Position numbers and translations under genes: made by a program. Shown in pieces: positions 40,917 to 64,000 of a stretch of 64,000 bases of DNA. Origin of the DNA: Athalassotoga saccharophila (GTDB lineage Bacteria > Thermotogota > Thermotogae > Mesoaciditogales > Mesoaciditogaceae); NCBI RefSeq assembly GCF_009936215.1, contig NZ_AP019551.1, positions 1 through 64,000 of the forward strand. Direction: 5' to 3'. Under the pieces are notes generated by a model that worked only from the letters and a program-made list of their open reading frames with translations, searched no databases and had not been told where the DNA came from. The number at the start of each line of letters is the position of its first letter. Position 1 is the stretch's first letter.

Positions 40917-40931
40917 TTTCTAACACCTCGA

Positions 40932-45400: not shown

Positions 45401-45476
45401 TGAAAAGTGTTATGAAGTACAGAAGGTACTCTTCAAACTTTGAAATAGATGGTTTAGACTTTACCTGTGTGGCCAT
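42426..45476 (-). CDS. Very long O-antigen ligase-like (Wzy_C) membrane protein
   Basis: Protein of 1016 residues. The N-terminal half has about 12 membrane helices with the Wzy/WaaL pattern: WKDHPVIGQGLGTYR in the long loop near residues 350-370 and HNDYVQLLGETGLVGIL near 390. The second half (about 510-1016) is a hydrophilic extracytoplasmic-type region, rich in Gln, Asn and Tyr, with helix repeats that look TPR- or coiled-coil-like. Ligases of this family join glycans to lipid or protein carriers. A tail of about 500 residues is unusual. It starts with an extended -10 promoter close upstream. Confidence 0.82.
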   Translation of the reverse strand: MATQVKSKPSISKFEEYLLYFITLFIPIVTIGPITYEYSTQKYAFFTILIFILFFAVIMEFRRQKQVNINIPLPAIGWGLFTIATALSLISVMIENFPYLRFSGMWVLYFAMTFLFVVYLVNRIKDKRIMINILGMLLISAGFIVLDSFLNFYAGWDIWLGHIGTPYLRDNVRATIGNPDFVPDYLGVLLFVAIYFISSRTLGYDTSKDKDKVYRKLMIIKILATIEAILMVAVIIFSQTRGVFIAIPLSVVFLALLYTYYQNFKVKKEDSKIDDIGKKLRKLSTTLLVIFIIAVFVEMFLYSIPGPFTGNSFSLTGRVSSSTQALSNAGTAQQRFLAWWASVYQWKDHPVIGQGLGTYRTDFLYYLGVSIEHHPSLMIAWNNFMKAHNDYVQLLGETGLVGILTLAFALGSLLWFVLRVLKKKDSDDALLMMLISAGSMVTLITSMYSFAEHLMPDSMTLTILLAFLVSDYFNKDGDLTWKIVLNKAKFAVSSLASLIISAGVMILMNMYFVSEVYFLYGNTNYQYISAYQNAASQANNQLNAVQNEINQLKSYSGNYAYLNPQTYIQSRIQQFLAANPGLNQTQASIQLESQRQQEYNQIMNQLNSNLQSIQTAINQFNDYENQSYIGAKDDFLNSVRWDNTYGTSEFYLGLLATFPQRDQEIINELNKALSSGSTSAQLNVLKDLFYGRNDITQFIHPQFKNLNYEGDYDLIASMVNSGIPLVELWNSLNINQLVQMQMYQDGIDYLKTSLESFAEKNSYRLIGQFSALLSSMNRSQASIYQNAISKYPKFKSQFEALIQKHDELAQQAFTQMEHWYDQLIFILPGGWNRYSGWNQVYSEYINNILQNAPLDATTYAKIKEIAQKYVWAGYYMQKTFWAIPTNTMGIFTSLAQNFIDNHMYSEALTTVNDTLAIFKPAYEWNVADLERYKGDTTIYNNAQDFINQYKELETKRVQFLSQLKAVYEYAFTNPTQKATAEEYVKDWNHNILTNVTTNDSTSDIISAITKMISETK

Positions 45477-45509
45477 TCTTCATCTACCTTTCCTTCGATC
45501 TTTTTTGAA

Positions 45510-45518
45510 ATTATACCA
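45510..45518 (-). promoter_or_regulatory. Extended -10 promoter of the Wzy_C-like gene
   Basis: Minus-strand TGG followed by TATAAT, 34 bases before the ATG. The -35 is poor. Confidence 0.55.
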
Positions 45519-45536
45519 TTTATAAGACTCTTATTT

Positions 45537-46268
45537 TCACCCGTTTAGTTCATGGCTCAATTCGTAGATAAATGGAAAGAACCGGTGCGAAGATAGATCC
45601 ATCTTTACAAGATCGGGAATGAATGAGACATTTTTTATCCTTTCGCCCGGCCATTCCCTGTAAAATCCGAAGGGATCTATGTGGACGGCCCTTATGCCGG
45701 CCCGATTTGCTCCAAGAATATCAGTGTAAAACATATCGCCAAAGAAGATCGCTTCATCGGCAGAAATCGAAAGTTCGCTAAGGGCCCTTTTGAAGATCGC
45801 CGGATCTGGCTTTTCTATGCCGACGATTTGAGAATCGTATATCTTATCCATAAAAGGTGCAATTCCAGTCTCTTTGAGTACTTGTTCAACCCTTCCATCT
45901 GAATTGGATATGACAGACATCGAATATCCCATGTTCTTCAAGATCTTGAGCGTCTCTATTACCCAGTCAAAGGTATAGGCCCACAGATTTTTGATTTTGT
46001 CCCTCTCATTCGTTTTTTCTATTAAAATCCTTACAGTCTCCTTTGACTTCGTAAAGGCACCGAAAAGTGCCTCGAGAAGATTACCCTCTATAAGTGTAAC
46101 CCTTTCCTTCATGCTTTTGTCTATCAGGTAATCTATCTCGTAAACTCTTTTGAGTATATCCTCCTCTTTTGCATCTATTCCGTATCCTTTCATTAAATTC
46201 GAAAGCCAAAAGAGGTCCGGGAAGACAAGAGTCCCCCCGGCATCGAGCAATATGTATGGCCTTTTCAT
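45537..46268 (-). CDS. HAD-superfamily hydrolase
   Basis: Cytosolic HAD-fold hydrolase of 243 residues. Motif I is ILLDAGGTLVFPD, where the second conserved Asp has become Gly, as in the haloacid-dehalogenase-like branch (DAGGT). Motif II is SVISNSDG, motif III the Lys of GIEKPDP, and motif IV FFGDMFYTDILGANRAG. It probably acts on a small phosphorylated compound, perhaps a sugar phosphate. It overlaps the ATPase gene by 4 bases, and might share its transcript. Confidence 0.9.
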   Translation of the reverse strand: MKRPYILLDAGGTLVFPDLFWLSNLMKGYGIDAKEEDILKRVYEIDYLIDKSMKERVTLIEGNLLEALFGAFTKSKETVRILIEKTNERDKIKNLWAYTFDWVIETLKILKNMGYSMSVISNSDGRVEQVLKETGIAPFMDKIYDSQIVGIEKPDPAIFKRALSELSISADEAIFFGDMFYTDILGANRAGIRAVHIDPFGFYREWPGERIKNVSFIPDLVKMDLSSHRFFPFIYELSHELNG

Positions 46269-48691
46269 GCTTTTTTACCTTTCAGAAGGTAATATTTCAC
46301 GAAATCGTTAACTACAAAGGAGAAAAACGCCGACATTCCTATCACAATCAAAGTATCAGTTATCGGGATAGGCTTAAGTCCCGGGAACCCAAAGGTAACA
46401 AGGAGAGCGACCGCTATCATGTCTATTATCGTTATGTAAAATAAGGATTTACTTGGGAAGGAATACCAGAAATGACCTCTTTCTCTAACGACAAAGACGG
46501 TCATCATACCAAAGTAAAAGAGAATGCTAAAAGAAAAGGTCTTTAAAAGTTCGTAATCTCGAGAAATCCCGAGAGGGCCCAATCCTATGTAAAGAATGGC
46601 GAGAGACTCCAAAACAACGAGTATCCCAAGCACTATCGATGATTTTACAAGACCAGTTATGTTCCATGTATCGGGCTTCTTTGACCATCTCGCATTATCA
46701 GTGGATATTGAAAGCGTTACGAAGTCTATGACGAAGAGCAAAAGCACGACGTCAAAGGCCGAAACTATAAAACGACCCGTTAACAAAAATGCCGCCACGA
46801 CAAAGACAACTATCTGGAAGGTTTTTACGACCTTGTTGAAGATCCATGTTAAAATCCTTTGATATATCTGTCTTCCAACCTTGACGAGATCGACTATGTT
46901 TCCGAGTCCTTCTCCGGTCAAGACAACGCTTGCCGCACCCTTTGCGACGTCTGTAGCACTGCTGACGGCTATACCAACCTCGGCCTGTTTCAAAGATGGA
47001 GCATCGTTAACACCGTCGCCGGTCATACCGACTATATGACCCTTCCTTTGCAAACTTTTCACTATGGAATATTTGTCCTGCGGGTAAATTTCGGCAAATC
47101 CATCGCTCTTTTCGGCGATCTCGGCAGCCTTATCGGGATCTTCTTCCACCAATTTTTCGAATTCCTTCGATGCGGTTATGGAATCCGAGAGGCCAACCTG
47201 ACGTGCCGTCTCTTGGGCTATTGGAAGAGCGTCACCGGTCAACATCTTAACCGATATCCCTAAGTTCTTCAATTCACCTATCAATTTCTTTGCGTCAGGC
47301 CTTGGCATATCGTAGAGGGCCACGAGTCCGACTATTTTAAGTTTATTATCTTCTCCCATTGCAACGGCAAGGGTCCTATATCCCTTGGAAGCGTATTCAA
47401 CGGTCTTTTTGTTCAAATCGTCGATATTCGAGTTGGTAAGTTCTGCGATCACGTTAACGGCACCCTTAACGACACGGAAGGTCTTTCCGTCATGTTCAAT
47501 TACGGCCTCAGTTCTTCTTGTTTTGGGATCGAAAGGGGTGAAGGACTTCTGGCTAAATCCATCTGTTGATATCTTTTTCTCCTTTAGCGCATTCAAAAAG
47601 GCAAGATCTATCGGATCGTGGTTCGCTTCCTGAGAGGCGAGGGATCCGTAAAGTATGACGGTATTTTCATCAAAACCACTCATCGGGATAACGCCGGCAA
47701 CGGAGAGTTTATTCATCGTTATCGTGCCGGTTTTATCCGAGCAGAGCGTGTCCATCGTCGCCGCATCTTCGGAAGCGCTAAGCCTTGTTACAAGCACACC
47801 ACGTTTGACAAGTTCCATAGAACCTATCGCCATGCTTATAGTGAACATGGCCGGCAAAGCAACCGGAATAGAGGAGGCCAAAAGCACAAGGGCCAAGGCA
47901 ACAACGTCGAATAGATTTATTCCGAGGAATATCGCAACGACAAATGCGACTGCTAAGGCTACTCCGACGATTATCAAAAGCCATTTCACAACGGATGAGA
48001 TGACATCTTCGGTGTGAAGCCTCGGCTTTGCAACCTGAACGAGTTCAGTTGTCTTTCCAAAATAAGTCTTGGTTCCTGTCAAAACGACGATGGCAGTCGA
48101 TTCTCCTGACTTGACAATGGATCCAGAAAAAAGCATGTCTGACTTTTCCTTCGAGACTGTCAAAGACTCTCCCGTCAGGGCCGATTGATCTACTTCGACC
48201 TGGCCGTCTATCAATTTAAGATCTGCCGGGACAAAATCTCCTGCCCTAACCCTGACGATATCGCCGGGCACAAGTTCACGTGCCGGAATCATCTCCCATT
48301 TACCATCTCTGAGAGTTCTCGAATTTATCTGTAATTGCTTTTTCAAAGCGTCTACCGCTTTTGATGCTCTTTGTTCCTGGAAGAAGCCAAGAACGGCATT
48401 CAACAAAAGCAACGCTATGATCACGTACATATCGATCATTTTGTTCAAAATGATCGAAAGAACGATCACAGCCTCCAGCATCCACGCCGTCAATCCCCAG
48501 AATTTCTTGGCAAAACTAAGGTATGGATTGGGCTTTTTTTCGGGTACTTCGTTGTAGCCATAAATTTTTACACGGTTTTCTACTTCCTCTTTCGACAAAC
48601 CCTTGCTTGGATCTGTCTCTAACTCTTTTAGAAGATCATCAACCGGCATCTTTTGATAATCTTTTTTTGCGTCTTTTACGTCCTCTGCCAT
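46265..48691 (-). CDS. P3A-type (plasma-membrane) proton-efflux P-type ATPase
   Basis: Ion pump of 808 residues. The phosphorylated Asp (D319) is in CSDKTGTITMNKLS, the actuator motif is VDQSALTGES, and the hinge is MTGDGVNDAPSLKQAEVGIA. It has about ten membrane helices and the N-terminal cation-ATPase domain. Length and the overall motif set match the archaeal and plant/fungal proton-pumping P3A group rather than Ca or Na/K pumps, so it likely exports protons from the cytoplasm. It could support pH control under acid conditions; the transported ion is inferred from subfamily likeness only. Confidence 0.88.
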   Translation of the reverse strand: MAEDVKDAKKDYQKMPVDDLLKELETDPSKGLSKEEVENRVKIYGYNEVPEKKPNPYLSFAKKFWGLTAWMLEAVIVLSIILNKMIDMYVIIALLLLNAVLGFFQEQRASKAVDALKKQLQINSRTLRDGKWEMIPARELVPGDIVRVRAGDFVPADLKLIDGQVEVDQSALTGESLTVSKEKSDMLFSGSIVKSGESTAIVVLTGTKTYFGKTTELVQVAKPRLHTEDVISSVVKWLLIIVGVALAVAFVVAIFLGINLFDVVALALVLLASSIPVALPAMFTISMAIGSMELVKRGVLVTRLSASEDAATMDTLCSDKTGTITMNKLSVAGVIPMSGFDENTVILYGSLASQEANHDPIDLAFLNALKEKKISTDGFSQKSFTPFDPKTRRTEAVIEHDGKTFRVVKGAVNVIAELTNSNIDDLNKKTVEYASKGYRTLAVAMGEDNKLKIVGLVALYDMPRPDAKKLIGELKNLGISVKMLTGDALPIAQETARQVGLSDSITASKEFEKLVEEDPDKAAEIAEKSDGFAEIYPQDKYSIVKSLQRKGHIVGMTGDGVNDAPSLKQAEVGIAVSSATDVAKGAASVVLTGEGLGNIVDLVKVGRQIYQRILTWIFNKVVKTFQIVVFVVAAFLLTGRFIVSAFDVVLLLFVIDFVTLSISTDNARWSKKPDTWNITGLVKSSIVLGILVVLESLAILYIGLGPLGISRDYELLKTFSFSILFYFGMMTVFVVRERGHFWYSFPSKSLFYITIIDMIAVALLVTFGFPGLKPIPITDTLIVIGMSAFFSFVVNDFVKYYLLKGKKA

Positions 48692-48803
48692 TTTTTCACC
48701 TTTACTTTCTTTCTATAATTTAAAAATACACATAACTCACCCGAAATAATCTCAGATAAGTTGGCATACGAAATTGAAATTACCAAGATCTACTTATTTG
48801 ATC

Positions 48804-49463
48804 TCACTTTGAAAAGGCCTTCATCACCTTTGACATATCATCGTCAAATGATTTGGCATCTTTTTGACTGTTTTCGGAGATTATAAGTTTCTCAAGCAAA
48901 TCATACCCTACAGTTATGTACTCAACGCCGCTGCTTACGAGAAAATCGAGTTGATCGGTGGTCTTTACACTCGCCGCAAGCAATTTCGTCCTCGTTTTGG
49001 AAAGTAAATTTAAAATTGTCTTAACGATTCCCTTTGCATCCATTCCATTCGATTCCATCCGGTTGAAATACACCGCCACATAGTCTGCGCCGAGAGAAGA
49101 CCACGCTATCGCCTGAGAGGGCGTGTATACAGCCGTCGCGCACACGCTGTATCCACGATCTACAAGAGATCTTGCGATCTCTATGCCCCCCGAAACAGAC
49201 GGTATTTTTATTATGAGTCTCGACATGTCCAAACTTTCAATCTCTTCAAGAACCTTTTCGGGTTTTTGAGATGGAATCTGCGCGAAAACCTCTCCATCGC
49301 ACATGTCCAACAATTTCGAATAAAAAGATCTCAAATTCTTGTATTCTTTCCAGACCTCTGCACTCTTTAAAAGCGTTGGATTGGTCGTTATTCCATGGAC
49401 ATACCCCAAAGCGAGGGCTTTTTTGATCTCATCTATTTTGGCCGAATCGATGTATAACTGCAT
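48804..49463 (-). CDS. Transaldolase-family protein (fructose-6-phosphate aldolase-like)
   Basis: TIM-barrel aldolase of 219 residues, the short form typical of FSA and thermophile transaldolases. The opening QLYIDSAKIDEIKKAL and the motif GITTNPTLL are at the N-terminus, and the Schiff-base Lys is in IIKIPS (about residue 83). The conserved ASVKTTDQL element follows. It links C3, C4, C6 and C7 sugars in the pentose phosphate network or cleaves F6P. It lies 13 bases downstream of glpK and probably shares its transcript. Confidence 0.9.
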   Translation of the reverse strand: MQLYIDSAKIDEIKKALALGYVHGITTNPTLLKSAEVWKEYKNLRSFYSKLLDMCDGEVFAQIPSQKPEKVLEEIESLDMSRLIIKIPSVSGGIEIARSLVDRGYSVCATAVYTPSQAIAWSSLGADYVAVYFNRMESNGMDAKGIVKTILNLLSKTRTKLLAASVKTTDQLDFLVSSGVEYITVGYDLLEKLIISENSQKDAKSFDDDMSKVMKAFSK

Positions 49464-49476
49464 GATATCATCTCCT

Positions 49477-50895
49477 TTACCATTTTACAGATATCTCTTC
49501 TGCCATTTGCCATCTTTTATAAATTGAATCGATATTTTCCGCAGGTTCAAAAAGATCGAATTCTTTTTTCAGAGGCAAAGCCTCGCTAAGATCATTTCTT
49601 ACCTTCGACATCAAAAAGGCACCGTAAGATGTCATTTCGTGAAATTTTGATCTTTCAACCTTCAAATTCGTGACATTCGAAAGTATCTGAACGAGCAAAG
49701 AATTTTTCGATCCACCACCATCGACGCGTATGGTCGAAAGGCTCAATCCACTTTTTTTGAAGGTATCTATAACCTCGGCCACCGAAAAGGCCATCGATTC
49801 TATTACCGATCTTATGATATTCGCTCTTGTGTGAGAAGAATTCATCCCCACAAAAAGCGCCCTCGCTCCTGGAGCCCATCGCGGTGATCCAAGACCGTCC
49901 AGAGCCGGAACAAAATAAATTCCATCGCTTTTTGCCGGCCGCGCGAGTTCTTCTATTTCTACCTCATCTTTTATAAGGGATATCCTCTTTAGCCAATTTA
50001 TCACCTCTCCGCTTGAGAGGACAGATCCTTCAAATGCGTAATCGACAGTTCCATTCATCGACCATGCGACTGTTTTCAAAAGTCCGTCAAATGGAGGGGT
50101 CTTCGAGTTCTTCGCGTTGACGAGTATAAATGCTCCCGTTCCGTAGGTACATTTAACCTCGCCCGAATTAATGCATAGATTGCCCATCAAAGATGCTTGC
50201 TGATCGCCTAAGACGGCGACAATCTTTCCATATTTGGAATTTCCAAAATCTCCATTCGAATTTATAACTTCGGGCATCGAAAACAAGGGTATTTTAAAGA
50301 CTTCAAGCAACTCTTTGTCCCAATTCATCGTGTTTATATCGAAGACCATCGTGCGCGATGCGTTGGACGGTTCTGTGAAATGATTTCCCGTTAATTTCCA
50401 GACAAGGTATGCATCTATCGTTCCAAACTTCAAATGAGGACTTCCGACGCGCTTTTTTACCTCCTCAACATTTTCTATCATCCATGATATCTTGGAGGCA
50501 GAAAAATAAGGATCGATCAAAAGGCCAGTCTTTGCCCTCACGATAGGCTCATAACCTGCGTCTTTTAACTCTTTGCAAAGGCTCTGGCTTCTTTTATCTC
50601 TCCAGACTATCGCGTTGTAAAGAGATCGTCCGTCTCTGTCGTCCCACGCGACAACGGTCTCGCGTTGATTTGTTATTCCAATCTTACTCGGAGTACACCC
50701 ACATTGATCTATGGCATCTTCTATCGATTCGAGAGTCTTTGAAAAGATCTCTTCGGCATTTTGCTCGACCCACCCAGAAGATGGATAGATCGCCTTAAGT
50801 TGCCTGTTAGACGAAGAAATGATATTTCCGTTTTCATCAAAGATAATTGCCCTTGTGCTTGTTGTACCTTCATCTATAATGAGCGTGTAATCCAT
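49477..50895 (-). CDS. glpK: Glycerol kinase
   Basis: FGGY-family kinase of 472 residues. ATP-binding DEGTTSTRAIIFDENG opens the protein, GITNQRETVVAWD and NAIVWRDKRS follow, then GDQQASLMG with the catalytic Asp and GLGSPRWAPGARALF. It makes glycerol-3-phosphate for lipid synthesis and catabolism. The start is ATG 50895, with GGGAGG seven bases upstream; the longest frame to 50922 lacks a site. The glycerol assignment relies on its FGGY signature and may need separation from other sugar kinases. No glycerol channel or dehydrogenase gene is nearby. Confidence 0.92.
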   Translation of the reverse strand: MDYTLIIDEGTTSTRAIIFDENGNIISSSNRQLKAIYPSSGWVEQNAEEIFSKTLESIEDAIDQCGCTPSKIGITNQRETVVAWDDRDGRSLYNAIVWRDKRSQSLCKELKDAGYEPIVRAKTGLLIDPYFSASKISWMIENVEEVKKRVGSPHLKFGTIDAYLVWKLTGNHFTEPSNASRTMVFDINTMNWDKELLEVFKIPLFSMPEVINSNGDFGNSKYGKIVAVLGDQQASLMGNLCINSGEVKCTYGTGAFILVNAKNSKTPPFDGLLKTVAWSMNGTVDYAFEGSVLSSGEVINWLKRISLIKDEVEIEELARPAKSDGIYFVPALDGLGSPRWAPGARALFVGMNSSHTRANIIRSVIESMAFSVAEVIDTFKKSGLSLSTIRVDGGGSKNSLLVQILSNVTNLKVERSKFHEMTSYGAFLMSKVRNDLSEALPLKKEFDLFEPAENIDSIYKRWQMAEEISVKW

Positions 50896-50896
50896 C

Positions 50897-51388
50897 TTAT
50901 CCTCCCTTACCGCAAATTCCATCCTCGCATTCCATCTTTATCTCGGAAAGTACGCTTTCACCGACGGGATTTTTTATCCCTCCAAGGTGGTATGCAACAT
51001 GCATGTGAAGACATTTCACGTGCCTGAAGTCCTTTATTCCTCCCATTCCTCCCTTAAAAAGGTCTTTAACGTTCTCATCGACAAAACTTTTAATTTTTTC
51101 GTTGGCCTTTAGATGTGCCTCTATCTGCAAATCGAGTAATTCTTTTGAATTCGAAAGAATTTCTTCATACCTTTTTATTCCGCCGTTACTTTCTATCTTC
51201 GAAATCTCCGATCTCATAAATGGACAGGTAAGCCAGTAAAGTGTTGGAAAAGGTTTCCCATCCAAAATCGGAAAGGATCTTATGACAACAGGAAATCCAA
51301 AAGAACAACGCCTTACGACCTCTGACACATTTTTGGGAATTCTATTCAACTGGATTGAAACAACTGACAAATCCTCCAATTCTATCAT
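50897..51388 (-). CDS. DUF501 family protein
   Basis: Conserved protein of 163 residues of unknown role. The family pattern CSFGFPVVIRSFPILDGKP, then PTLYWLTCPF, and a C-terminal region with Cys/His-rich HVKCLHMHVAYHLGG and IKNPVG is visible, possibly metal-binding. The start is set to ATG 51388, overlapping the udk stop as ATGA, with AAGGA upstream; the longest frame (to 51472) lies inside udk. It is followed one base later by glpK. Confidence 0.85.
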   Translation of the reverse strand: MIELEDLSVVSIQLNRIPKNVSEVVRRCSFGFPVVIRSFPILDGKPFPTLYWLTCPFMRSEISKIESNGGIKRYEEILSNSKELLDLQIEAHLKANEKIKSFVDENVKDLFKGGMGGIKDFRHVKCLHMHVAYHLGGIKNPVGESVLSEIKMECEDGICGKGG

Positions 51389-51993
51389 TTGTTGAGCATC
51401 CTTTCGAGTGCTTCGATTATTATAGAAAGACCGGTGTGGTTTTCCCCTCCCCTTGGAAGGATGATATCGCAATCGTACTTTTGCGGTTCTATGAAACTTC
51501 TAAAGGCCGGCGCGACAAACCTTCTGTACTGAAATATTATAGACTCGATAGATCTTCCGCGCTCCTTTGTGTCTCTTTCGATCCTTCTTATCAGTCTTTC
51601 ATCGGCATCCTCATCAACGTAGATGGCCAGATCGAAGAGTTTCCTTATCTCCTTTTTGTATATGACAAGAATCCCTTCGACTATAATAAGATCGCGTGGT
51701 TCAACGTGAATAGTCTTAGATGTGTCCCGTCTATAGGTTACAAAACTGTAATTTGGAACCTCTATCGCCTTCCCATTTTTAAGATCGACAAGGTGCGAAA
51801 GGAAGAGATCGAAATCAAAGGCAGTTGGCGCATCGAAGTTGACATTTCTCGGATCCACGCCTGGCTCTAAGTCTTTGTAATAACTGTCCATGTTGATACA
51901 TACCGCTCTGTTCGAAAATCTATCAAGAATTTTATTCGCGACAGTGGTCTTTCCGGCCCCACTGCCACCTATTATCGCAACGAATGTACTCAT
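51385..51993 (-). CDS. udk: Uridine kinase
   Basis: P-loop kinase of 202 residues that phosphorylates uridine and cytidine. The N-terminal Walker A is GGSGAGKTT, DSYYKDLEP carries the nucleoside-binding Asp, and NFDAPTAFDFDL is the matching substrate segment; LIVEGILVIY is the Walker B region. The gene starts the udk-DUF501-glpK-aldolase run, behind an extended -10 promoter about 16 bases before the ATG, with GAGAGGTGAG as ribosome site. Confidence 0.95.
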   Translation of the reverse strand: MSTFVAIIGGSGAGKTTVANKILDRFSNRAVCINMDSYYKDLEPGVDPRNVNFDAPTAFDFDLFLSHLVDLKNGKAIEVPNYSFVTYRRDTSKTIHVEPRDLIIVEGILVIYKKEIRKLFDLAIYVDEDADERLIRRIERDTKERGRSIESIIFQYRRFVAPAFRSFIEPQKYDCDIILPRGGENHTGLSIIIEALERMLNK

Positions 51994-52008
51994 ATCTCAC
52001 CTCTCGAA

Positions 52009-52017
52009 ATTATAACA
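52009..52017 (-). promoter_or_regulatory. Extended -10 promoter of the udk operon
   Basis: Minus-strand TGT followed by TATAAT. The -35 is weak (TTTAAA at 17 bases). The transcript leader would be very short, about 10 bases. Confidence 0.55.
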
Positions 52018-52115
52018 TATACTGAATCAACTTTAAATTTATAATATATGGCGATATACCTTGATAAGGAGTGAATAACGGAATGTAAATTGATAATTGA
52101 AAATTAAAAATTGAA

Positions 52116-52163
52116 AATTGTCCATTTTCAATTCTCAATTTTTACTACGTATTACCTGCTATC
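52116..52163 (+). repeat. Direct repeat, left copy, flanking the Rpn-type gene
   Basis: 48-base sequence from AATTGTCCATTTTCAATT to ATTACCTGCTATC. The same 48 bases recur without a mismatch at 53166-53213. Immediately to the left is A/T-rich TTGAAAATT-type sequence that can pair with TTTTCAATT in the repeat. Confidence 0.95.
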
Positions 52164-52167
52164 GTCG

Positions 52168-52176
52168 TGTTATAAT
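52168..52176 (+). promoter_or_regulatory. Extended -10 promoter of the Rpn-type gene
   Basis: TGT followed by TATAAT, directly after the left repeat. Ribosome site GAGGTGATC precedes the ATG at 52192. No good -35 is seen. Confidence 0.55.
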
Positions 52177-52191
52177 TAATTGAGGTGATCT

Positions 52192-53100
52192 ATGGCATAC
52201 AAAGATGTGATACTCAAGTATCTTTCCCATATATCCCCGAAAGAAATCGCAGAGTTTGTAGGAGTTGATTCCGAAACAGTCGAGAGCCTTTCAGAGGAGA
52301 TAAAAGACATACGAATCGCAGATTTGCACGCGGACTTTGTCCTTCGAACAGAAGATAAGATTTTGCACGTTGAGTTCCAGCAGGAAATGAGAAGAGATGA
52401 TCTGAACAGATTTTACGTATACAATGCATTGCTTACAAGAGAATTTGACAGGGTCATTGACACATACATAATCTATCTTGGAAATGTCAAGATACCACCT
52501 CAAATTATCTCAGGAAAGATAGTAAGGTTCGAGCCCGAGGTAATAAGAGTGTCCGAGATGGATGCAAAGGATGTACTCGAGAAGGCAAAAAGCGGGCAGG
52601 GGAATATAATCGCGATGGCATTGATGCCTCTTATGAGGAACTGTGACAAAGAGGATATCGTTGAATTAGTCGATACCGAGGCTACGATGAAGATTCCCGA
52701 AGGGTTAAAGGCCGATATACTTACATCGACTCTTTTGATGACCCTTACGGTATACGATGAGGATTTTGTGAAGGAATTAAAAAGGAGGTTGACTGAAATG
52801 TACGATGTAGATATTTTCAAAGAAGACCGACAAAAATTGCTTGAACAATTTGAAAAAGAAAGGCAAGCAGCCATTACAGAAGGAATTATAAAAGGGAAAT
52901 TAGAAGGAAAAATAGAAGGAAAAATAGAGACATTAAGAGAAAGTGTCTCAAGGCTTTTACTTGCCAAATTCAAGGAATTATACACATTGCAAATGAGAGA
53001 GGCTGTTAACAAGGCACCAGAGGATGTGCTTGATTACATAATGGATCACATTTTCGAAATCAGTCTTGAAGATGTCAAGAAAATTCTCTTTATCTCGTGA
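52192..53100 (+). CDS. Rpn-family recombination-promoting nuclease / PD-(D/E)XK transposase-like protein
   Basis: Protein of 302 residues of the Rpn family (recombination-promoting nuclease, often annotated as putative transposase). The PD-(D/E)XK core shows as ADLHADFVLRTEDKILHVEFQQEM, with the Asp, Glu and Gln of the active site. The C-terminal third has repeats of charged sequence (GKLEGKIEGKIET) that look like a coil, as in many Rpn proteins. It is the only forward gene between the udk and flagellar clusters, and lies between perfect 48-base direct repeats, which suggests that it moved in or mediates local recombination. A role in defence is possible but unproven. Confidence 0.85.
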   Translation: MAYKDVILKYLSHISPKEIAEFVGVDSETVESLSEEIKDIRIADLHADFVLRTEDKILHVEFQQEMRRDDLNRFYVYNALLTREFDRVIDTYIIYLGNVKIPPQIISGKIVRFEPEVIRVSEMDAKDVLEKAKSGQGNIIAMALMPLMRNCDKEDIVELVDTEATMKIPEGLKADILTSTLLMTLTVYDEDFVKELKRRLTEMYDVDIFKEDRQKLLEQFEKERQAAITEGIIKGKLEGKIEGKIETLRESVSRLLLAKFKELYTLQMREAVNKAPEDVLDYIMDHIFEISLEDVKKILFIS

Positions 53101-53165
53101 GATAACCAGTCAAGGTTAACAAATTGGGGTTTATGAGAAGTGAGTAGTAAAGAGTAAACAGTTTT

Positions 53166-53213
53166 AATTGTCCATTTTCAATTCTCAATTTTTACTACGT
53201 ATTACCTGCTATC
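53166..53213 (+). repeat. Direct repeat, right copy, flanking the Rpn-type gene
   Basis: Identical to 52116-52163 over 48 bases. The copies are 1050 bases apart, start to start. Confidence 0.95.
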
Positions 53214-53249
53214 TGCCACCCGCTACCTACTACCTGCATTTAGGAATTT

Positions 53250-53267
53250 TTTCAACGCGCGTTGAAA
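53250..53267. promoter_or_regulatory. Perfect 18-bp palindrome before the flagellar rod operon
   Basis: TTTCAACGCGCGTTGAAA reads the same on both strands. It lies 20 bases before the first flagellar gene and is G+C-rich in the centre, in A/T-rich surroundings, so an operator is more likely than a terminator. Confidence 0.5.
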
Positions 53268-53286
53268 GATCTTTTGAGGTGATCGA

Positions 53287-53988
53287 ATGCATACAGGGCT
53301 TTACGACGCAACGATGGGAATGCTTGTCGATCAGGCACAGGTAGACATGATATCGAACAATTTAGCCAATGTGAACACCTATGGATTTAAAACCGATTCC
53401 ATGACCTTTGCCGCGACAATGCAAAGAGAACTTTACAAGGAAATCGTGCCTTCAAAATTCTCACCTATAGGAAAAATGACAAATGCCGTTGTCGTGAATT
53501 CAGTCCTTCCAAATATGAGTGAAGGCGCACTTCAACAGACAGGTAGAAAATTAGACTACGCGATAGACGGAAGCGGTTTTTTTGCCGTCAGAGATGGAAA
53601 TCAAATTCTCTACACAAGAGATGGGAGTTTTAACATTTCTCCAGACGGTGAACTTGTCGATAATATGGGTAGAGAGGTACTCGGTGCGGCACTTCAGCCA
53701 ATAATGGCAGACAGCGGACAAGCACCGGCCGTTTTTAACGTTGCTAATCCTTCCTATCTTCAAAAGGTTGGTGGAAATGCCTTTGTGTCAACTGCCCAGA
53801 GTGGACCTTTCATCCTTGATCCAAATGGAAAAGTGATGCAAGGGTACCTCGAGACATCGAATGTCAACGCCGTCAAAGAAATGGTTGATTTGATAAATGC
53901 ATTTCAGAATTACCAGATAGCGCAAAAGGCTATAACAACTCAGGACTCAATGATGACAACGGGAATAAATGTAGGTAGCGTAACGTAA
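53287..53988 (+). CDS. flgF: Flagellar hook-basal body protein, FlgF-like
   Basis: Rod protein of 233 residues of the FlgE/FlgF/FlgG/FlgK family. The N-terminal helix carries MISNNLANVNTYGFKTDS, and the C-terminal helix QGYLETSNVNAVKEMVDLINAFQNYQ packs with it in the assembled rod. Members without the D2 insert and placed before flgG are normally FlgF, the proximal rod protein. It has no signal peptide and is exported by the flagellar secretion system. It is first in a six-gene operon. Confidence 0.85.
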   Translation: MHTGLYDATMGMLVDQAQVDMISNNLANVNTYGFKTDSMTFAATMQRELYKEIVPSKFSPIGKMTNAVVVNSVLPNMSEGALQQTGRKLDYAIDGSGFFAVRDGNQILYTRDGSFNISPDGELVDNMGREVLGAALQPIMADSGQAPAVFNVANPSYLQKVGGNAFVSTAQSGPFILDPNGKVMQGYLETSNVNAVKEMVDLINAFQNYQIAQKAITTQDSMMTTGINVGSVT

Positions 53989-53999
53989 AGGAGGTCAAA

Positions 54000-54785
54000 A
54001 TGCTTAACTCACTTTCAACAGCGGCAACGGGCATGAATGCCCAGCAATTCATGATAGACACGATATCGAATAATTTAGCCAACGCCAACACAACGGCATT
54101 TAAAGAGAGCAGGGCCGAATTTGCCGATCTTGCCTATCAAAATCTTTACATAGCCGGCACACCAACATCCCAAAACACTCAATCCCCAACTGGTCTCTAC
54201 GTTGGCCATGGAACGAGGCTTGTCGCGACAAACCGTTTATTTACACTCGGAAGTCTTTCTTCGACTGGCAATCCTCTCGATCTCGCGATAGACGGAGACG
54301 GTTTCTTTCAGGTTCAACTTCAAAATGGACAGATAGGCTACACAAGAGATGGAAGTTTTAACCTCGATGGTCAGGGAAGGCTTGTGACAAGTGATGGATA
54401 TGTAGTCGTTCCAAATATAGTGATTCCTCAAAACGCTGAATCGATAAACATAGCGCCAAATGGCACCGTGACCGTAACCCAGCCAGGTGGTACCCAGACT
54501 CAGGTTGGTCAGATCACGCTTGTGAGATTTTTGAACCCTGCCGGATTGGAATCGATAGGAGACAACCTCTACGTGGCAACTCCGGCATCGGGTCAACCAA
54601 TTCAAGGCATTGCGAATCAGGACGGCTTTGGAGCGCTCAGACAGGGCTATCTCGAGACTTCAAATGTCAATGTCATCCAGCAAATGGTAGACATGATAAA
54701 TGCCGAGAGGGCTTACGAATTTGATTCGAAAGTTATCCAGACTTCAGATCAGATGTTACAGGATGTGGCAACACTCAAGCAATGA
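54000..54785 (+). CDS. flgG: Flagellar distal rod protein FlgG
   Basis: Distal rod protein of 261 residues, exactly the usual length of FlgG. The opening LSTAATGMNAQQFMIDTISNN, the middle IDGDGFFQVQ, YTRDGSFNLD, and the end GYLETSNVNVIQQMVDMINAERAYE are all typical. It stacks onto FlgF to make the shaft that passes through the P and L rings. The gap to the previous gene is 11 bases, with AGGAGGTC as ribosome site, and the stop overlaps flgA by 4 bases. Confidence 0.97.
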   Translation: MLNSLSTAATGMNAQQFMIDTISNNLANANTTAFKESRAEFADLAYQNLYIAGTPTSQNTQSPTGLYVGHGTRLVATNRLFTLGSLSSTGNPLDLAIDGDGFFQVQLQNGQIGYTRDGSFNLDGQGRLVTSDGYVVVPNIVIPQNAESINIAPNGTVTVTQPGGTQTQVGQITLVRFLNPAGLESIGDNLYVATPASGQPIQGIANQDGFGALRQGYLETSNVNVIQQMVDMINAERAYEFDSKVIQTSDQMLQDVATLKQ

Positions 54786-55924
54786 AGAAATTTTTAGCCA
54801 TTATCATTTTGATTTCAATTGAAATTTACGCCTTTGGCCTTGGAATAGAACTCACACTCAAATCGAGCACGACGGTTTCATCGGAATATGTAACACTTTA
54901 CGATCTCGCTTCAACGTTCACAGGCGTATCCGTATCAGACCTTAAAAATTTCATCGTCGCCTTTGCGCCACAACCCGGAACATATTATTACCTTGATGCT
55001 CAAAGCATAAAAATAAGGGCTGAACAATCTATAAAATGGCTGAAGGTTATTCCAACCTCAAAAGAGATAATGGTTTATTCTACTGAAGTGCCAGTTGATC
55101 TTTTGAAAATTCAAAATGCGATCGCGTCAAAGGCGGGAACTTCAAATATTTTCGTTGTAAACTTCCAGCCTACGGGAATTCGCAATTCAAATTACGATAT
55201 AGAGGTAAGTAATATCTCTCAATTCGGTCAGAATTGTTTCGCGCTTGTCAAAGTCATTTCTGGCCAAAACGTATCTTATTCGAATGCCACATTCGAGATA
55301 GGCAGGATAGGAATTGCAAAATCTTTCGATGATATATCCCGAATCGCCGCGGCAGATCTTGGAAAGGGAATAACTCTGACAGATGTTTCAAAGGTTCAAC
55401 TTCCCAAGTTCGATGAATTAGCAGTTGGAAGACCATTCAAAATTTCTGGCAAAATGGTAGGCGTTCCGGTCAACGTGATCAAAGATGGAAAAGTTATAGA
55501 TGCGAAAATCATCAAATACGTGCCCGAGGAAATTGAAAATGTCATCGTGGCATCTGTCGATATAAATTACGGACAAAGAATAACTGCCGATATGATAAAG
55601 CAAATGCCAATGGACGTTTACGCGACGACCACGGCATACGCGACGATTCCTTCGAGAATAATTGGAAATCTTACCTTATGGTCATTCAAAGCAGGACAAA
55701 TAATATCGCCACTTGGCATTTCCACGCCTCCAGACGTTATGGCAGGACAGATAATCGTTGCCTATGTCTCTTATAACAGTCTGACGGTAACAACCTTTGT
55801 AAGGGTCATGCAAAATGGTTATATCGGCCAGATTATACCCGTAAGAAATATAGAAAATGGTTATTTGATGTACGGCCTTTTGGAAAGCGGGCCCAAAGTG
55901 AAGATTTACGGAGGTAATTCATGA
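54782..55924 (+). CDS. flgA: Flagellar P-ring chaperone FlgA
   Basis: Periplasmic chaperone of 380 residues needed for P-ring assembly. It has a signal peptide (KKFLAIIILISIEIYAFG), an N-terminal segment, and SAF-type beta-clip repeats in the C-terminal half (IVASVDINYGQRITADMIKQ, then SFKAGQIISPLGISTPPDVMAGQIIVA). It is longer than the 219-residue E. coli protein because of extra N-terminal sequence. The gene overlaps flgG and flgH by 4 bases each. Confidence 0.9.
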   Translation: MKKFLAIIILISIEIYAFGLGIELTLKSSTTVSSEYVTLYDLASTFTGVSVSDLKNFIVAFAPQPGTYYYLDAQSIKIRAEQSIKWLKVIPTSKEIMVYSTEVPVDLLKIQNAIASKAGTSNIFVVNFQPTGIRNSNYDIEVSNISQFGQNCFALVKVISGQNVSYSNATFEIGRIGIAKSFDDISRIAAADLGKGITLTDVSKVQLPKFDELAVGRPFKISGKMVGVPVNVIKDGKVIDAKIIKYVPEEIENVIVASVDINYGQRITADMIKQMPMDVYATTTAYATIPSRIIGNLTLWSFKAGQIISPLGISTPPDVMAGQIIVAYVSYNSLTVTTFVRVMQNGYIGQIIPVRNIENGYLMYGLLESGPKVKIYGGNS

Positions 55925-56532
55925 AAAAATTCATCATTTTATTTCTTTTTATTTCGATCTTCTCATTTGTCTTTGCCGACTCTTTATGGGAAAGTTCAAC
56001 CAATTCTAATTTCAAAAATCTTTTTACCCTTCCGGTCGCGAGCAAGGTTGGAGACACAATAACTGTCATGATTTACGATACGACGAATACCTCCTACTCT
56101 TACAAAAATCCTAATTACACGGGAGGAATACTCTCAATAATAGGAGGGCTTATAAAGTCTGTGACCAATTTCGACATATCAAAATTACTTCCCACAAGTT
56201 CACCTTCATCTTCCATCAACACCAATTCCATCTCCTCACAAAATCAGTCACAATTTGTAACGACACTCTCTGCCGTTGTCACAAAGGTTTATCCGAACGG
56301 GAACCTTGAAATAACTGGAAAGAGAGATATAAAGATAGACAATTCGATGAGGGAGATACAGATAAAAGGCATAGTAAATCCAAATGATATTCAGCCCGGG
56401 AATATAGTCAATTCTTCAAATATAGCAGATCTTGAAATATGGTACGATGGTAATGTCGTCTTTCAAGAAGGCGTTCAAAATGACAGATGGATAACATGGT
56501 TTATGAATTCTTTGGCATCTTTGATCTTTTAA
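55921..56532 (+). CDS. flgH: Flagellar L-ring protein FlgH
   Basis: Ring protein of 203 residues around the rod at the outer envelope. It has a signal peptide (KKFIILFLFISIFSFVFA) without a lipobox Cys, VGDTITVMIYDTTNTSY, then a Ser-rich stretch, and the C-terminal motifs VVTKVYPNGNLEITGKRDIKI and IKGIVNPNDIQPGNIVNSSNIADLEI typical of FlgH. E. coli FlgH is a lipoprotein, so the missing Cys fits a Thermotogota-type envelope. The gene overlaps flgA by 4 bases. Confidence 0.93.
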   Translation: MKKFIILFLFISIFSFVFADSLWESSTNSNFKNLFTLPVASKVGDTITVMIYDTTNTSYSYKNPNYTGGILSIIGGLIKSVTNFDISKLLPTSSPSSSINTNSISSQNQSQFVTTLSAVVTKVYPNGNLEITGKRDIKIDNSMREIQIKGIVNPNDIQPGNIVNSSNIADLEIWYDGNVVFQEGVQNDRWITWFMNSLASLIF

Positions 56533-56545
56533 AGGGGCGATTTAA

Positions 56546-57559
56546 TTGAAAAAGATATCGATCTTTTTTATCACTTTGGTAATTTTAATTTCAATCGTAC
56601 TCGCGGCTGGCGATGTCGTGACGATACAGGACATAACTAAAATAAGAGGTGCTATGGACAACCAATTGTTTGGTGTGGGAGTTGTCGTTGGACTGAATGG
56701 AAATGGAGACAGTGGCCCTGTTCCATCTGAATTGATCGCGAATATGCTCAAAAACTTCGGCGTCGTCGTCGCACCATCGGATCTCAATTCAAAAAATTCG
56801 GCGCTTGTCATGGTAACGGCTAATATACCTCCATTTTACTATCCCGGAATGAAATTGGGAGTTACGGTCTCATCGATAGGAGATGCGAAAAGCCTTCAGG
56901 GAGGAGTTTTACTTGAAACCCCTCTTTACGGTGCCGACGGCAATGTGTACGCCGTGGCTCAAGGTCAACTTTCGATAGGTGGATTCAACACGAATCAAAG
57001 TGTTTCACTTCAACAGAGGTATTCTCTTGTCGCGACAATTCCAGATGGCGCGATAGTTCAAAAAGAGATTCCATCCAGCATAGTTAAGGCCGGCATCGTG
57101 ACATTGCTTCTTAACAAACCAGACGTTGTGACGGCCGCAAGAATTGCACAGGCGATAAATTCAAAGTTCCAGTCCAACATAGCGATAGCCTCCAGCGCCG
57201 GAGCCGTTGATATACAGGTGCCAAATGCTTTTACAAACAATCTAATAGATTTTCTTGCCATAGTTGAACAAATTCAAGTCATTCCAAACCTTCCACAGGA
57301 AATCGTCATAAATGAAAGAACGGGCACGGTCATCTTTGGAGGAGACATAACTCTTCCAGATTTCACGATGAGTTACGGAAATTTCTCCATATCGATCGTC
57401 AACGGTCAATTACAAAATGGTAGCAGTTCTTCTGGAAATACACTCGCAGACCTTGTCAACGCACTTAAAGCCCTTGGCGCCACACCGCAGGACATAATCG
57501 CCATAGCAGAGGCCCTTCACAAAGCCGGAATTCTTCAACAAAATGTGGTGATAATGTGA
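56546..57559 (+). CDS. flgI: Flagellar P-ring protein FlgI
   Basis: Periplasmic ring protein of 337 residues. Signal peptide (KKISIFFITLVILISIVLA), then the conserved QDITKIRGAMDNQLFGVGVVVGLNGNGDSG, ALVMVTANIPPFYYPGMKLGVTVSSIGDAKSL and LYGADGNVYAVAQGQL. The end (INERTGTVIFGGDITLP and NTLADLVNALKALGATPQDIIAIAEALHKAG) is the usual FlgI closing part. Translation begins at TTG (56546), with AAAGGGGCG upstream; no better start exists. It overlaps the next gene by 4 bases. Confidence 0.96.
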   Translation: MKKISIFFITLVILISIVLAAGDVVTIQDITKIRGAMDNQLFGVGVVVGLNGNGDSGPVPSELIANMLKNFGVVVAPSDLNSKNSALVMVTANIPPFYYPGMKLGVTVSSIGDAKSLQGGVLLETPLYGADGNVYAVAQGQLSIGGFNTNQSVSLQQRYSLVATIPDGAIVQKEIPSSIVKAGIVTLLLNKPDVVTAARIAQAINSKFQSNIAIASSAGAVDIQVPNAFTNNLIDFLAIVEQIQVIPNLPQEIVINERTGTVIFGGDITLPDFTMSYGNFSISIVNGQLQNGSSSSGNTLADLVNALKALGATPQDIIAIAEALHKAGILQQNVVIM

Positions 57560-57879
57560 TCATCTCTCCTTTGAGTTTGATGAATTCATCGAATATACAG
57601 GATTTGCCAAAAAATGAACAATTAAAAGTCGTCTCGGCCCAGTTTGTCTCTCTTTTACTGTCAGAAGTCTTTAACGAGATGGAAAAGGGAATATACAAAT
57701 CAAACCTTGTACCGGACCAATTCGGTGAATCTTGGTACCGCCAATGGCTTATGGATATCTACGCGCAGGACGCGGCCGGGCAAAATTTTGGACAATTAGT
57801 TAAACTCGTCGAAACTCAGATTTCAAAAAATCCTTACAAGGAGTTGCCTGACAGAACGGAAAATTTCTCGACAAAATGA
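57556..57879 (+). CDS. flgJ: FlgJ-like rod-binding protein (N-terminal domain only)
   Basis: Protein of 107 residues that matches only the N-terminal rod-capping domain of FlgJ: EQLKVVSAQFVSLLLSEVFNEMEKGI, then the Gly-Gln-Asn core GQNFGQLVKLVETQ. The muramidase domain of E. coli FlgJ is absent, as in many bacteria. Translation starts at GTG overlapping the flgI stop as GTGA. The last 46 bases are shared with the end of the convergent DUF2156 gene. Confidence 0.87.
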   Translation: MIISPLSLMNSSNIQDLPKNEQLKVVSAQFVSLLLSEVFNEMEKGIYKSNLVPDQFGESWYRQWLMDIYAQDAAGQNFGQLVKLVETQISKNPYKELPDRTENFSTK

Positions 57880-58721
57880 TCCGGAAAATAGGATAATTTC
57901 GCCTTTCTAAGTCCTTCGTCTCCGAGGTCTTGTTCTCTGTTTACAAACATGCCGGGATTAAGGTTATTTTTACAAAAGAGATTATTTATTGCCACGTAAA
58001 TTCCCTCATAGGCTTTGTTTGCCTTCTCGATATGAATGACAAAGGTGTTTTGATTTAACATCTCTCCGAGCGTGAAGGCCTGTATCTCTCCATCTATGAG
58101 GATCATTGCCCCCTTTAATTCGAGTTCATCGAAATTTTCAAGGGCAAGTTTTGTGGCCTCAAATTCGTCTAAAAGGTTCATATCGTCTTTGCATCTTTTC
58201 TCCTCGCACCATTTTTTGGCAAGTTCAACAGCCGAGATCGCGTCTTTTCCAGTCATTGGGAGGTATTGGTAATGGTACATTTTTAAAAAATTGGAAAGAT
58301 GGTTTCTTTTTGAATGGTACTTTCTTCCCGCAAGATTTATAAGATCCTCTGCTTTGTAAACGTAATCGAATTGATCTCTCGATGGAATAATTTTAAAATC
58401 ATCGTTCAGAAGTGACGTGAATTTTTTCGCAACTCGGTCAAAAACTATTTCCGAGTTGTGAGATGATATCCATGAAGAAAGGCTTTTGAGATCGTCTATT
58501 TCCAATTTTCCTACAGTCTCCAAAAAATAAGGTCTATCGCCACACATAAAAAGGACCGTATCTTTGAAAACAGTCCATCTAACCTTGAGATGGTCTTTCC
58601 ATATAAAAAGGTTTGTAAAGTTCATCTCCGAATTTTCCGGCTGGTAATTCCATATGCGATCCTTCAAAAATCTTCTGTCTCCTATTTCTATTTCTTTGAA
58701 TTCTGGAAATTTTGGAATCAT
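57834..58721 (-). CDS. DUF2156 / phosphatidylglycerol lysyltransferase C-terminal-like protein
   Basis: Cytosolic protein of 295 residues, with two GNAT-like halves. The motifs KYHSKRNHLSNFLKMY, the ELEL...GAMILIDGEIQAFTLGE segment and the ending FVNREQDLGDEGLRKAKLSYFP are typical of the DUF2156 group. This is the catalytic domain found at the end of MprF-type aminoacyl-phosphatidylglycerol synthases, but the membrane part is absent, so it may use another aminoacyl-tRNA acceptor. Its gene converges on flgJ, sharing 46 bases. A minus-strand promoter is at 58775-58783. Confidence 0.85.
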   Translation of the reverse strand: MIPKFPEFKEIEIGDRRFLKDRIWNYQPENSEMNFTNLFIWKDHLKVRWTVFKDTVLFMCGDRPYFLETVGKLEIDDLKSLSSWISSHNSEIVFDRVAKKFTSLLNDDFKIIPSRDQFDYVYKAEDLINLAGRKYHSKRNHLSNFLKMYHYQYLPMTGKDAISAVELAKKWCEEKRCKDDMNLLDEFEATKLALENFDELELKGAMILIDGEIQAFTLGEMLNQNTFVIHIEKANKAYEGIYVAINNLFCKNNLNPGMFVNREQDLGDEGLRKAKLSYFPDHFVEKFSVLSGNSL

Positions 58722-58738
58722 TCTCCACCTCTCAAATA

Positions 58739-58747
58739 TGATATACT
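58739..58747 (+). promoter_or_regulatory. Extended -10 promoter of cydAB
   Basis: TGA followed by TATACT. The leader would be about 48 bases and ends in a strong AAAGGAGGG ribosome site. No strong -35 is seen. Confidence 0.5.
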
Positions 58748-58774
58748 ATTAAAAATGAAAATGAATATCAATAA

Positions 58775-58783
58775 ATTATACCA
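58775..58783 (-). promoter_or_regulatory. Extended -10 promoter of the DUF2156 gene
   Basis: Minus-strand TGG followed by TATAAT, about 55 bases before the start codon. It overlaps the cydA leader, so the two divergent promoters may interfere. Confidence 0.5.
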
Positions 58784-58800
58784 AAAAAGGAGGGATTTTT

Positions 58801-60174
58801 GTGGATCCTCTATTCTTGTCGAGACTTCAGTTTGCAGTAACTACAGCCTTCCACATGCTCTGGCCTCTTTTGAGCATAGGATTGAGTTTTATGATGGTCA
58901 TTCTCGAGATTCTCTGGCTTAAGACGAAGAATGAGGTCTACTACAGACATGAAAGGTTCTGGTCGAAGATCTTCCTTCTAACCTTCGGCATAGGAGTTGC
59001 GAGCGGGCTGGTGCTTGAATTCGAATTCGGCACAAATTGGGCAGGATTTTCTCAAGTTGTCGGAGGCTTTTTTGGGAATATACTTGGATTTGAAGGTTCA
59101 ATGGCCTTTGCACTCGAGGCCGCTTTCCTGGCCCTCTTCATTTTTGGATGGGGCAGAATATCTAACAGGGCACATCTCGTATCGACTATAATGGTGGCAT
59201 TTGGAGCGTCACTTTCTGCTTGGTGGATAATGGACGCGAATTCGTGGATGCAAACACCAACCGGTGTTAAAATCGTCAACGGATCCGTCGCATCGATAAA
59301 TTACCTTCAGGCAATTTTGAATCCATTTGCCACGATCTCGTTCTGGCACATGTGGATTGCCTGCATAGAAACAACTATATTTTTTGTAGCGGGAATAAGC
59401 GCTTACTACATATTGAAAAATCAAAACACCGAATTCTTTCTCAAAATATTCAAAATATCCGTTATAATCGCGATTTTTGCCACCCCGCTTCAGGTCTACC
59501 TCGGAGATCTCTCGGGAAAGGCCGTTGGAGATTACCAGCCGGCCACTCTTGCGGCGATGGAATCACATTGGAATACAAATCCTGCCGGTACGGGCGCCAC
59601 ATGGCATCTTATTGCCATACCCGACAGATCGAAAGAGACGAATTCATTTGTCATAAACATGCCTATACCCGGTCTTATGAGTTTTCTCGATACCGGATCA
59701 TTCACGGCTCAGGTCAAAGGTCTCAAAGATTTTCCACCCGAGGATAGAGGACCCATAATTCTGCCATTTTACTCTTTTAGATTGATGGTTCTCATAGGAT
59801 TTATAATGGTCTTCATGATGCTATGGGCTTTGTGGTACTGGGTAAAGGGATATTTAAAGTACGAGAACACGTCAAAACATAAATGGTTCTGGAAAATATG
59901 GTACTGGGGCTTTCCCCTTGGCTTTATAGCGACAGAACTTGGATGGATAACCCGTGAGGTCGGAAGGCAGCCGTGGATAATATACGGAATAATGAGAACT
60001 TCCGAAGGCGTCTCAAATCTCACGACAGCACAGGTAATGGTCACATTGACAGCCTTTATAGCAACGTACGTTTTGCTTTTTGTCCTCTTTATCGTGTTTG
60101 TACGTAAGATAATAAAAGCAGGCCCAGATCTCAAAAGCCCGCTTCCTATGAAAGAGGCGAAAGAAAATGCATGA
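58801..60174 (+). CDS. cydA: Cytochrome bd ubiquinol/menaquinol oxidase subunit I
   Basis: Haem-bearing subunit of a terminal quinol oxidase, 457 residues and nine membrane helices. Conserved ligands are visible: H18 (TTAFHMLWP), the Glu and Phe pattern of LEFEFGTNW and FEGSMAFALEAAF, the second haem His in FWHMWIA, and the Met in FRLMVLIGF. EVGRQPWIIYG is typical of the short-Q-loop (cyanide-insensitive-like) form. It starts GTG after AAAGGAGGG. It reduces oxygen to water without pumping, and protects oxygen-sensitive anaerobes. Confidence 0.97.
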   Translation: MDPLFLSRLQFAVTTAFHMLWPLLSIGLSFMMVILEILWLKTKNEVYYRHERFWSKIFLLTFGIGVASGLVLEFEFGTNWAGFSQVVGGFFGNILGFEGSMAFALEAAFLALFIFGWGRISNRAHLVSTIMVAFGASLSAWWIMDANSWMQTPTGVKIVNGSVASINYLQAILNPFATISFWHMWIACIETTIFFVAGISAYYILKNQNTEFFLKIFKISVIIAIFATPLQVYLGDLSGKAVGDYQPATLAAMESHWNTNPAGTGATWHLIAIPDRSKETNSFVINMPIPGLMSFLDTGSFTAQVKGLKDFPPEDRGPIILPFYSFRLMVLIGFIMVFMMLWALWYWVKGYLKYENTSKHKWFWKIWYWGFPLGFIATELGWITREVGRQPWIIYGIMRTSEGVSNLTTAQVMVTLTAFIATYVLLFVLFIVFVRKIIKAGPDLKSPLPMKEAKENA

Positions 60175-61171: not shown

Positions 61172-61197
61172 AAAAGGCGTACGATGTACGCCTTTTT
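61171..61197 (+). terminator. Intrinsic terminator of cydAB
   Basis: 12-bp perfect inverted repeat, AAAAAGGCGTAC with GTACGCCTTTTT, and a 3-base loop. It begins at the last base of the cydB stop and is A- and T-flanked, so it may serve both strands. Confidence 0.9.
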
Positions 61198-61206
61198 ACA
61201 TTATAT

Positions 61207-62118: not shown

Positions 62119-62132
62119 CTTTTACCACTCCT

Positions 62133-62870: not shown

Positions 62871-62881
62871 TCACGCACCTC

Positions 62882-63964: not shown

Positions 63965-63994
63965 TTTTCATCCCTCCAAATTAGATATCTTCTT

Positions 63995-64000
63995 ATTATA
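63995..64000 (-). promoter_or_regulatory. Probable -10 box of the dehydrogenase-isomerase operon
   Basis: Minus-strand TATAAT at the very end of the window, 31 bases from the start codon. The -35 would lie beyond the window. Confidence 0.5.

Follow-up and report, generated by a model that had tools for sequence, protein, structure and literature searches.

The Rpn-type gene of Athalassotoga saccharophila NAS-01 described here is enclosed by two identical 48-nt direct repeats, and the locus is probably a mobile defence cassette lodged within a resident heptad-repeat element and moved by recombination between dispersed elements of this kind. The gene lies in the window, the 64-kb stretch of DNA that was analysed (positions 1 to 64,000 of the 1,957,762-base chromosome). 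That identical repeats box an Rpn-type gene had been proposed in a preliminary description of the window made from the letters alone, and this was confirmed, with the left copy ending 28 nt before the gene and the right copy beginning 65 nt after its stop codon (Table 1). The pair is the only exact repeat of at least 24 nt in the window. Its two copies are also the only places in the window where the 7-nt autocorrelation reaches 0.6 (maximum 0.75), the highest value in 100 Markov-1 sequences of window length being 0.55. The NAS-01 genome was closed by hybrid assembly and includes two plasmids, of 43.7 and 43.5 kb (PMC7163026), which makes it unlikely that the 48-nt repeats arose through faulty assembly. 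Judged by sequence reading, the box is flanked by a uridine-kinase-like ORF on the minus strand (udk, 51385-51993) and a flagellar rod-protein-like ORF (53287-53988). The extended -10 promoter formerly placed just inside the left copy is present (TGTTATAAT, 52168-52176), though it lies directly behind that copy and not inside it. Elsewhere in the window, a solo (CYACNNG)-type heptad block occupies intergenic positions 9043-9070.

Table 1. Features of the boxed Rpn-like gene and the surrounding heptad-repeat element (window coordinates)
Feature	Position	Strand	Remarks
Segment without counterpart in G003	52036..53236	.	About 80 bp in G003, including one heptad block
Left part of heptad-repeat element	52083..52163	+	Heptads and core; hairpin predicted in single strand, DNA fold z = -3.6
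(ANAATTG)n heptads within left part	52086-52115	+	Ahead of the 48-nt core
Left copy of 48-nt core	52116..52163	+	Identical to right copy
Cassette leader TGTTATAATTAATTGAGGTG	52168..52187	+	Extended -10 and Shine-Dalgarno; common to five toxin-antitoxin cassettes of the 630-637 kb array
Rpn-like gene (RpnL), 302 aa	52192..53100	+	Predicted PD-(D/E)XK residues D48 and E61-x-Q63; putative motif assignment
Internal Shine-Dalgarno AAGGAGGT of predicted RpnS start	52782..52789	+	From sequence and relatives
Predicted RpnS, 100 aa, intragenic antitoxin	52798..53100	+	In-frame ATG, codon 203; PMC10327210
12-nt periodic stretch	52873..52940	+	Codes four-residue repeats (KLEG/KIEG), first helix of RpnS
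Third heptad block, GAGAAGT-type, cassette 3' end	53137..53165	+	Heptad register by inspection
Right copy of 48-nt core	53166..53213	+	Identical to left copy
Right half of element, remaining (CYACNNG)n block	53214..53236	+	By alignment with complete elements

The 48-nt repeat is the core of a larger element of roughly 107 nt that is built of degenerate 7-nt units. Alignment with the complete elements at 1160, 1465, 1521, 1535 and 1546 kb gives the block order (ANAATTG)n - (CAATTNT)n - (CYACNNG)n, with units that read CAATTNT (or the complement) in one block and CYACNNG in the block that follows. The flanks of the two window copies differ, with (ANAATTG)n heptads before the left copy and more (CYACNNG)n heptads after the right. 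Consequently, the left copy has the first blocks and breaks off within the third, and the right copy lacks the first block and has the third. When the left half of the left copy and the right half of the right copy are joined, the product aligns with complete elements at scores of 51-69; the right copy together with the flank on its own left reaches 31-45, and shuffled sequences reach about 10-14. Because the joined halves score as a complete element, the rpn cassette is seen to sit inside one element whose 48-nt core has been duplicated. Complete elements are predicted to fold into hairpins as single-stranded DNA (z of -3.4 to -4.5), as is the left copy; no such hairpin was found for the right copy. 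The two window cores are identical, whereas the closest further copy is 82% identical over the query; gene conversion could be another source of this identity.

Comparison with relatives supports the earlier suggestion of a small cassette bounded by recombinogenic repeats, and the search for an empty site was successful. In G003, a draft metagenome-assembled genome (MAG) of a sister species in the same genus, the genes that flank the box are adjacent (172 bp apart), and no rpn gene lies between them. The NAS-01 segments 40,003-52,035 and 53,237-64,000 are collinear with G003 at 86-87% identity, and within these 24 kb no large insertion other than the rpn box interrupts the alignment. The G003 site contains one (CAATTNT)n-type heptad block and has neither the 48-nt core nor the (CYACNNG)n block. 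Either gain in NAS-01 or loss in G003 would account for the difference. Collinearity at this site does not extend to two further relatives, G001 and G002. Homologues of rpn in G002, G004 and G007 are unboxed.

The boxed gene appears, from its sequence, to be an Rpn-type toxin-antitoxin gene-within-a-gene, in which RpnL spans the whole frame and RpnS starts at 52798. The window protein alone has no match in Pfam, NCBIfam (PF04754 and TIGR01784 included) or PDB. However, 6 of the 16 members of its homologue alignment match the PF04754, RpnA or TIGR01784 models (best values 5.7e-60 for PF04754 and 6.2e-23 for TIGR01784), and seven match DUF4351; the window protein is assigned to the Rpn family because its homologues match these family models. 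Additionally, residues 229-299 align with the C-terminal domain of the canonical Rpn set in hhalign (42% identity, E 4e-14). D48 and E61-x-Q63, putative residues of a predicted PD-(D/E)XK fold, are invariant within the subfamily alignment. A single-sequence AlphaFold model of the window protein reached a pLDDT of 40, too poor for a structure search, and a search of the genome with PF12784 was uninformative, since it matched nothing, the controls included. The strong internal Shine-Dalgarno sequence is kept in six of seven full-length family homologues. The lag-12 periodicity of the window has its maximum in the stretch listed in Table 1, which begins shortly past the internal methionine, and alignments show that the number of four-residue repeats varies among homologues. 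In all these features (an in-frame internal start with a strong Shine-Dalgarno sequence, a shared C-terminal domain and four-residue repeats of varying number soon past the internal methionine) the gene resembles the published RpnL/RpnS genes (PMC10327210); it departs from that set in an N-terminal half too divergent for PF04754 or TIGR01784. By analogy, RpnL and RpnS would be made and act as in E. coli. Homologues of rpn occur in 12 of 41 Thermotogota genomes. Just past the window end, a paralogue at 65357-66262 (L032) is about 55% identical to the window gene; no repeats box it, and upstream there is just a short (CYACNNG)-type stretch.

The elements are widely distributed, and the search for further repeat copies found them both in the NAS-01 chromosome and in relatives. 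The inventory combines one 72-nt BLAST query with a heptad scan of about 267 kb of stretches around repeat matches. On the chromosome the query has 52 matches, which correspond by eye to about 31 sites, and on the plasmids it has none. These properties are those of intergenic heptamer repeats, namely 7-nt-period direct repeats in several copies per genome. Most sites are solo, about 13 of them in ordinary intergenic regions, and some adjoin ordinary genes. Defence genes adjoin 7 of 20 independent, hand-grouped element loci, an enrichment with P of about 3e-5 if 5% of the intergenic background is assumed to lie beside defence genes and 0.002 if 10% is assumed. In relatives, (CAATTNT)-type heptads lie between genes that read as dTDP-rhamnose (rfb) genes (G007 contig C10, L184 1089-3492, and L185), and the presence of heptads between sugar-nucleotide genes means that the defence link is an enrichment and not a rule. 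A pattern scan of 85,000 genomes returned three further heptad stretches, one of them in a Bacteroidales MAG near core genes, where both heptad types are flanked by what look from sequence reading like genes for subunits of respiratory complex I (L128 3330-3520). Heptad elements thus extend more widely than defence cassettes. Viral contigs contain no match to the heptad A-B pattern. At one orthologous solo site (L166 500-700 and L039 near 1882.98 kb), two species have heptad mosaics that differ from block to block, which suggests fast turnover in 7-nt steps.

The cassette phenomenon is more general than the single rpn box, and reading these units as cassettes is likely to be correct. Between 630.4 and 637.4 kb lies a row of at least eight small toxin-antitoxin-type operons, nearly all in one orientation and with heptad elements between them. 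Pfam matches identify PIN_3, ParE, NTP_transf_2 (an MNT-like nucleotidyltransferase), HicBA, DUF433/DUF5615, DUF2283/PBECR2, HicBA, an ATPase_2/DUF234 protein and a further HicB. The HicA partner of this last HicB looks frameshifted (about 637.19-637.42 kb, L033 16190-16420). Directly behind the left rpn repeat stands a leader, TGTTATAATNAATYGRGGTG, which recurs behind the repeats that precede five operons of the array. With two mismatches allowed, it occurs in 267.5 kb of NAS-01 sequence only at rpn and these five toxin-antitoxin cassettes, at all six places immediately behind a heptad block and in the same orientation. G003 and G002 each have it ahead of one HicB gene. Taken separately, TGTTATAAT and GAGGTGAT occur commonly across the NAS-01 genome (for example at udk and the flagellar gene), and the specific signal is therefore their fixed combination behind heptads. 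One leader match in a viral contig (L210) was set aside as coincidence, having no heptads and an ordinary phage context.

Several cassettes differ in presence or order between species. In G002, three cassettes of the array are found behind dnaJ, in an order permuted relative to the NAS-01 array and with the breakpoints within elements. Nucleotide identity between the two species is 92.6% over 752 nt for DUF2283/PBECR2, 90.0% over 561 nt for the HicB region and 83.8% over 1010 nt for the PIN pair, and the adjacent dnaJ region is 73.8% identical. NAS-01 and G003 have only short heptad sequence at the dnaJ site, which thus mirrors the rpn site, with cassettes in one species and heptads alone in others. 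At the right end of the array, G003 carries a different HicBA pair between heptads. A repeat with VapBC at 695 kb, where the element stands on one side only, is present in G002 and absent from G003 and G001, and neither G002 nor G003 has the solo element that NAS-01 carries at 698.5 kb. In one G003 contig (C126, L170 870-960), the flanks of the NAS-01 element sites at 1465 and 1286 kb are joined with no elements, a junction that could reflect recombination or misassembly and is not counted as evidence here.

CRISPR arrays are associated with the same elements. Two arrays, at 1160.2-1161.7 and 1521.3-1522.9 kb, are bounded by elements on both sides; at 1465, 1535 and 1546 kb, an element marks the distal end of the array. 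Between the 1535- and 1546-kb arrays lies a type I cas operon, in which Cas7 was confirmed by Pfam. G003 lacks both the 1160-kb array and its elements. Several arrays are near-identical and have similar leader regions (L034 9340-10910, L036 15230-16705, L035 4500-17000 and L038 7300-9700); abutting elements, and with two of them boxed, they look as if they had been copied as cassettes. In the MAG FK4.bin83, two CRISPR arrays are separated by a heptad element (L129 120-1190), and the CRISPR repeat and leader sequence are the same as in NAS-01.

The observed repeat identity, empty site, element halves, shared leader and shuffling of cassettes between species can be brought together in a recombination model. 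A cassette would consist of an element, a promoter and RBS leader, the toxin-antitoxin genes and then the next element. It would reach the chromosome either in circular form or, after transformation, as linear DNA bounded by element sequence, and short-homology recombination with a resident element would duplicate the core, here exactly 48 nt. A single crossover between the cassette element and the resident element would leave such a split element with a duplicated core, and the reverse exchange between the cores would excise the cassette. ComEC is present in NAS-01, and transformation may be the source of the DNA. The genome contains no integron integrase above the cut-off (TIGR02249) and no Y1_Tnp, for which the controls matched; these absences favour homologous or strand-annealing recombination as the presumed agent.

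Among the alternatives, we regard it as unlikely, if the strongest of the rivals, that two dispersed repeats landed independently around an ordinary rpn gene and that the box has no function. The solo elements in ordinary intergenic regions, together with solo insertions missing from relatives such as that at 698.5 kb, show that elements can occupy sites on their own. However, independent landing sits poorly with cores that are identical to each other when the next closest copy is far less similar, that are halves of one element, and that are missing as an entire box from G003; the leader, moreover, is common to other boxed cassettes only. Somewhat less probable still is an integron-like capture, in which the elements serve as att sites for a tyrosine recombinase. 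The resemblance to sedentary chromosomal integrons is considerable: both comprise an array of small genes with many toxin-antitoxin pairs, a repeat between cassettes and reshuffled content, and here the elements share one orientation within the array, change order among species and form hairpins. In contrast to such integrons, no integrase was found (generic tyrosine recombinases match weakly and are distant or on plasmids), each cassette has its own promoter, and the elements vary by whole heptads with no fixed crossover dinucleotide. Unlike integron sites, they also occur singly across the chromosome and box CRISPR arrays.

Two further readings seem very improbable. Movement of the hairpin element and the DNA between two copies by an IS200/IS605-like (Y1) transposase acting on peeled single strands, or by another transposase, would fit the single-strand hairpins of full elements and an ORF adjoining the G002 array that by inspection resembles the C-terminal end of TnpB (L183). 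Nevertheless, the missing Y1_Tnp counts against it, and one transposition does not explain the box, since the cassette splits an element. The box also lacks the hallmarks of an insertion sequence or transposon, with no transposase inside and with ends that are direct rather than inverted. The least probable reading, by a small margin of judgement, is that the Rpn nuclease itself mobilises the repeats by a homing or transposase-like action at the element. This draws on the reported ability of Rpn nucleases to raise RecA-independent recombination (PMC5350276), and the preliminary description had offered a related idea, that the nuclease acts on the repeat. This idea was not supported, because many genes other than rpn are boxed by elements, and rpn homologues in relatives, like the 65.4-kb paralogue, are unboxed; furthermore, G003 has elements and no detected rpn (in a draft genome), and the RpnL/RpnS study saw no sign of autonomous transposition (PMC10327210). 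The repeats do occur widely away from rpn: they accompany CRISPR arrays and toxin-antitoxin genes of other kinds, and they also stand alone. Their wide occurrence had been named beforehand as grounds for rejection; it counts against a link between nuclease and repeat, and not against the recombination of cassettes between elements.

Heptamer direct repeats are known from Beggiatoaceae, Cyanobacteria and Bacteroidetes, where they show indels in 7-nt steps, break assemblies and have been given a suggested role in gene rearrangement (PMC4679880). The elements described here share with those TAACTGA-family and mixed heptamers an intergenic position, 7-nt direct repeats, 7-nt-step indels and mixed types. 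They differ in their unit sequences, in having degenerate units and a fixed three-block order, and in belonging to the phylum Thermotogota, and they are concretely linked to defence cassettes for which empty sites and changes of order are seen. The literature, as far as it was covered, contains no description of heptad elements that bound toxin-antitoxin or CRISPR cassettes.

These elements bear on the general question of how mobility is achieved by toxin-antitoxin genes, Rpn genes and stand-alone CRISPR arrays that have no recombinase of their own. Published rpn genes are gained and lost without identifiable flanking repeats or defined ends (PMC10327210), whereas the gene described here has a direct-repeat box and defined ends. 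Both the filled site and an empty equivalent have been identified, shared cassettes can be traced through permuted orders in sister species, and the complete genome of a cultured strain with public raw reads makes excision directly testable. The elements look like docking sites where defence genes are gained, lost and reshuffled. More tentatively, heptad elements may serve toxin-antitoxin, Rpn and CRISPR cassettes as a general docking system that needs no integrase. Each cassette would have a standard repeat-promoter-RBS head, and host recombination would insert, excise and reorder the cassettes at whichever resident element is available. Such a system would give a concrete role to the intergenic heptamer repeats that are known from several phyla but unexplained, and the scattered repeats of those other phyla could be systems of the same kind.
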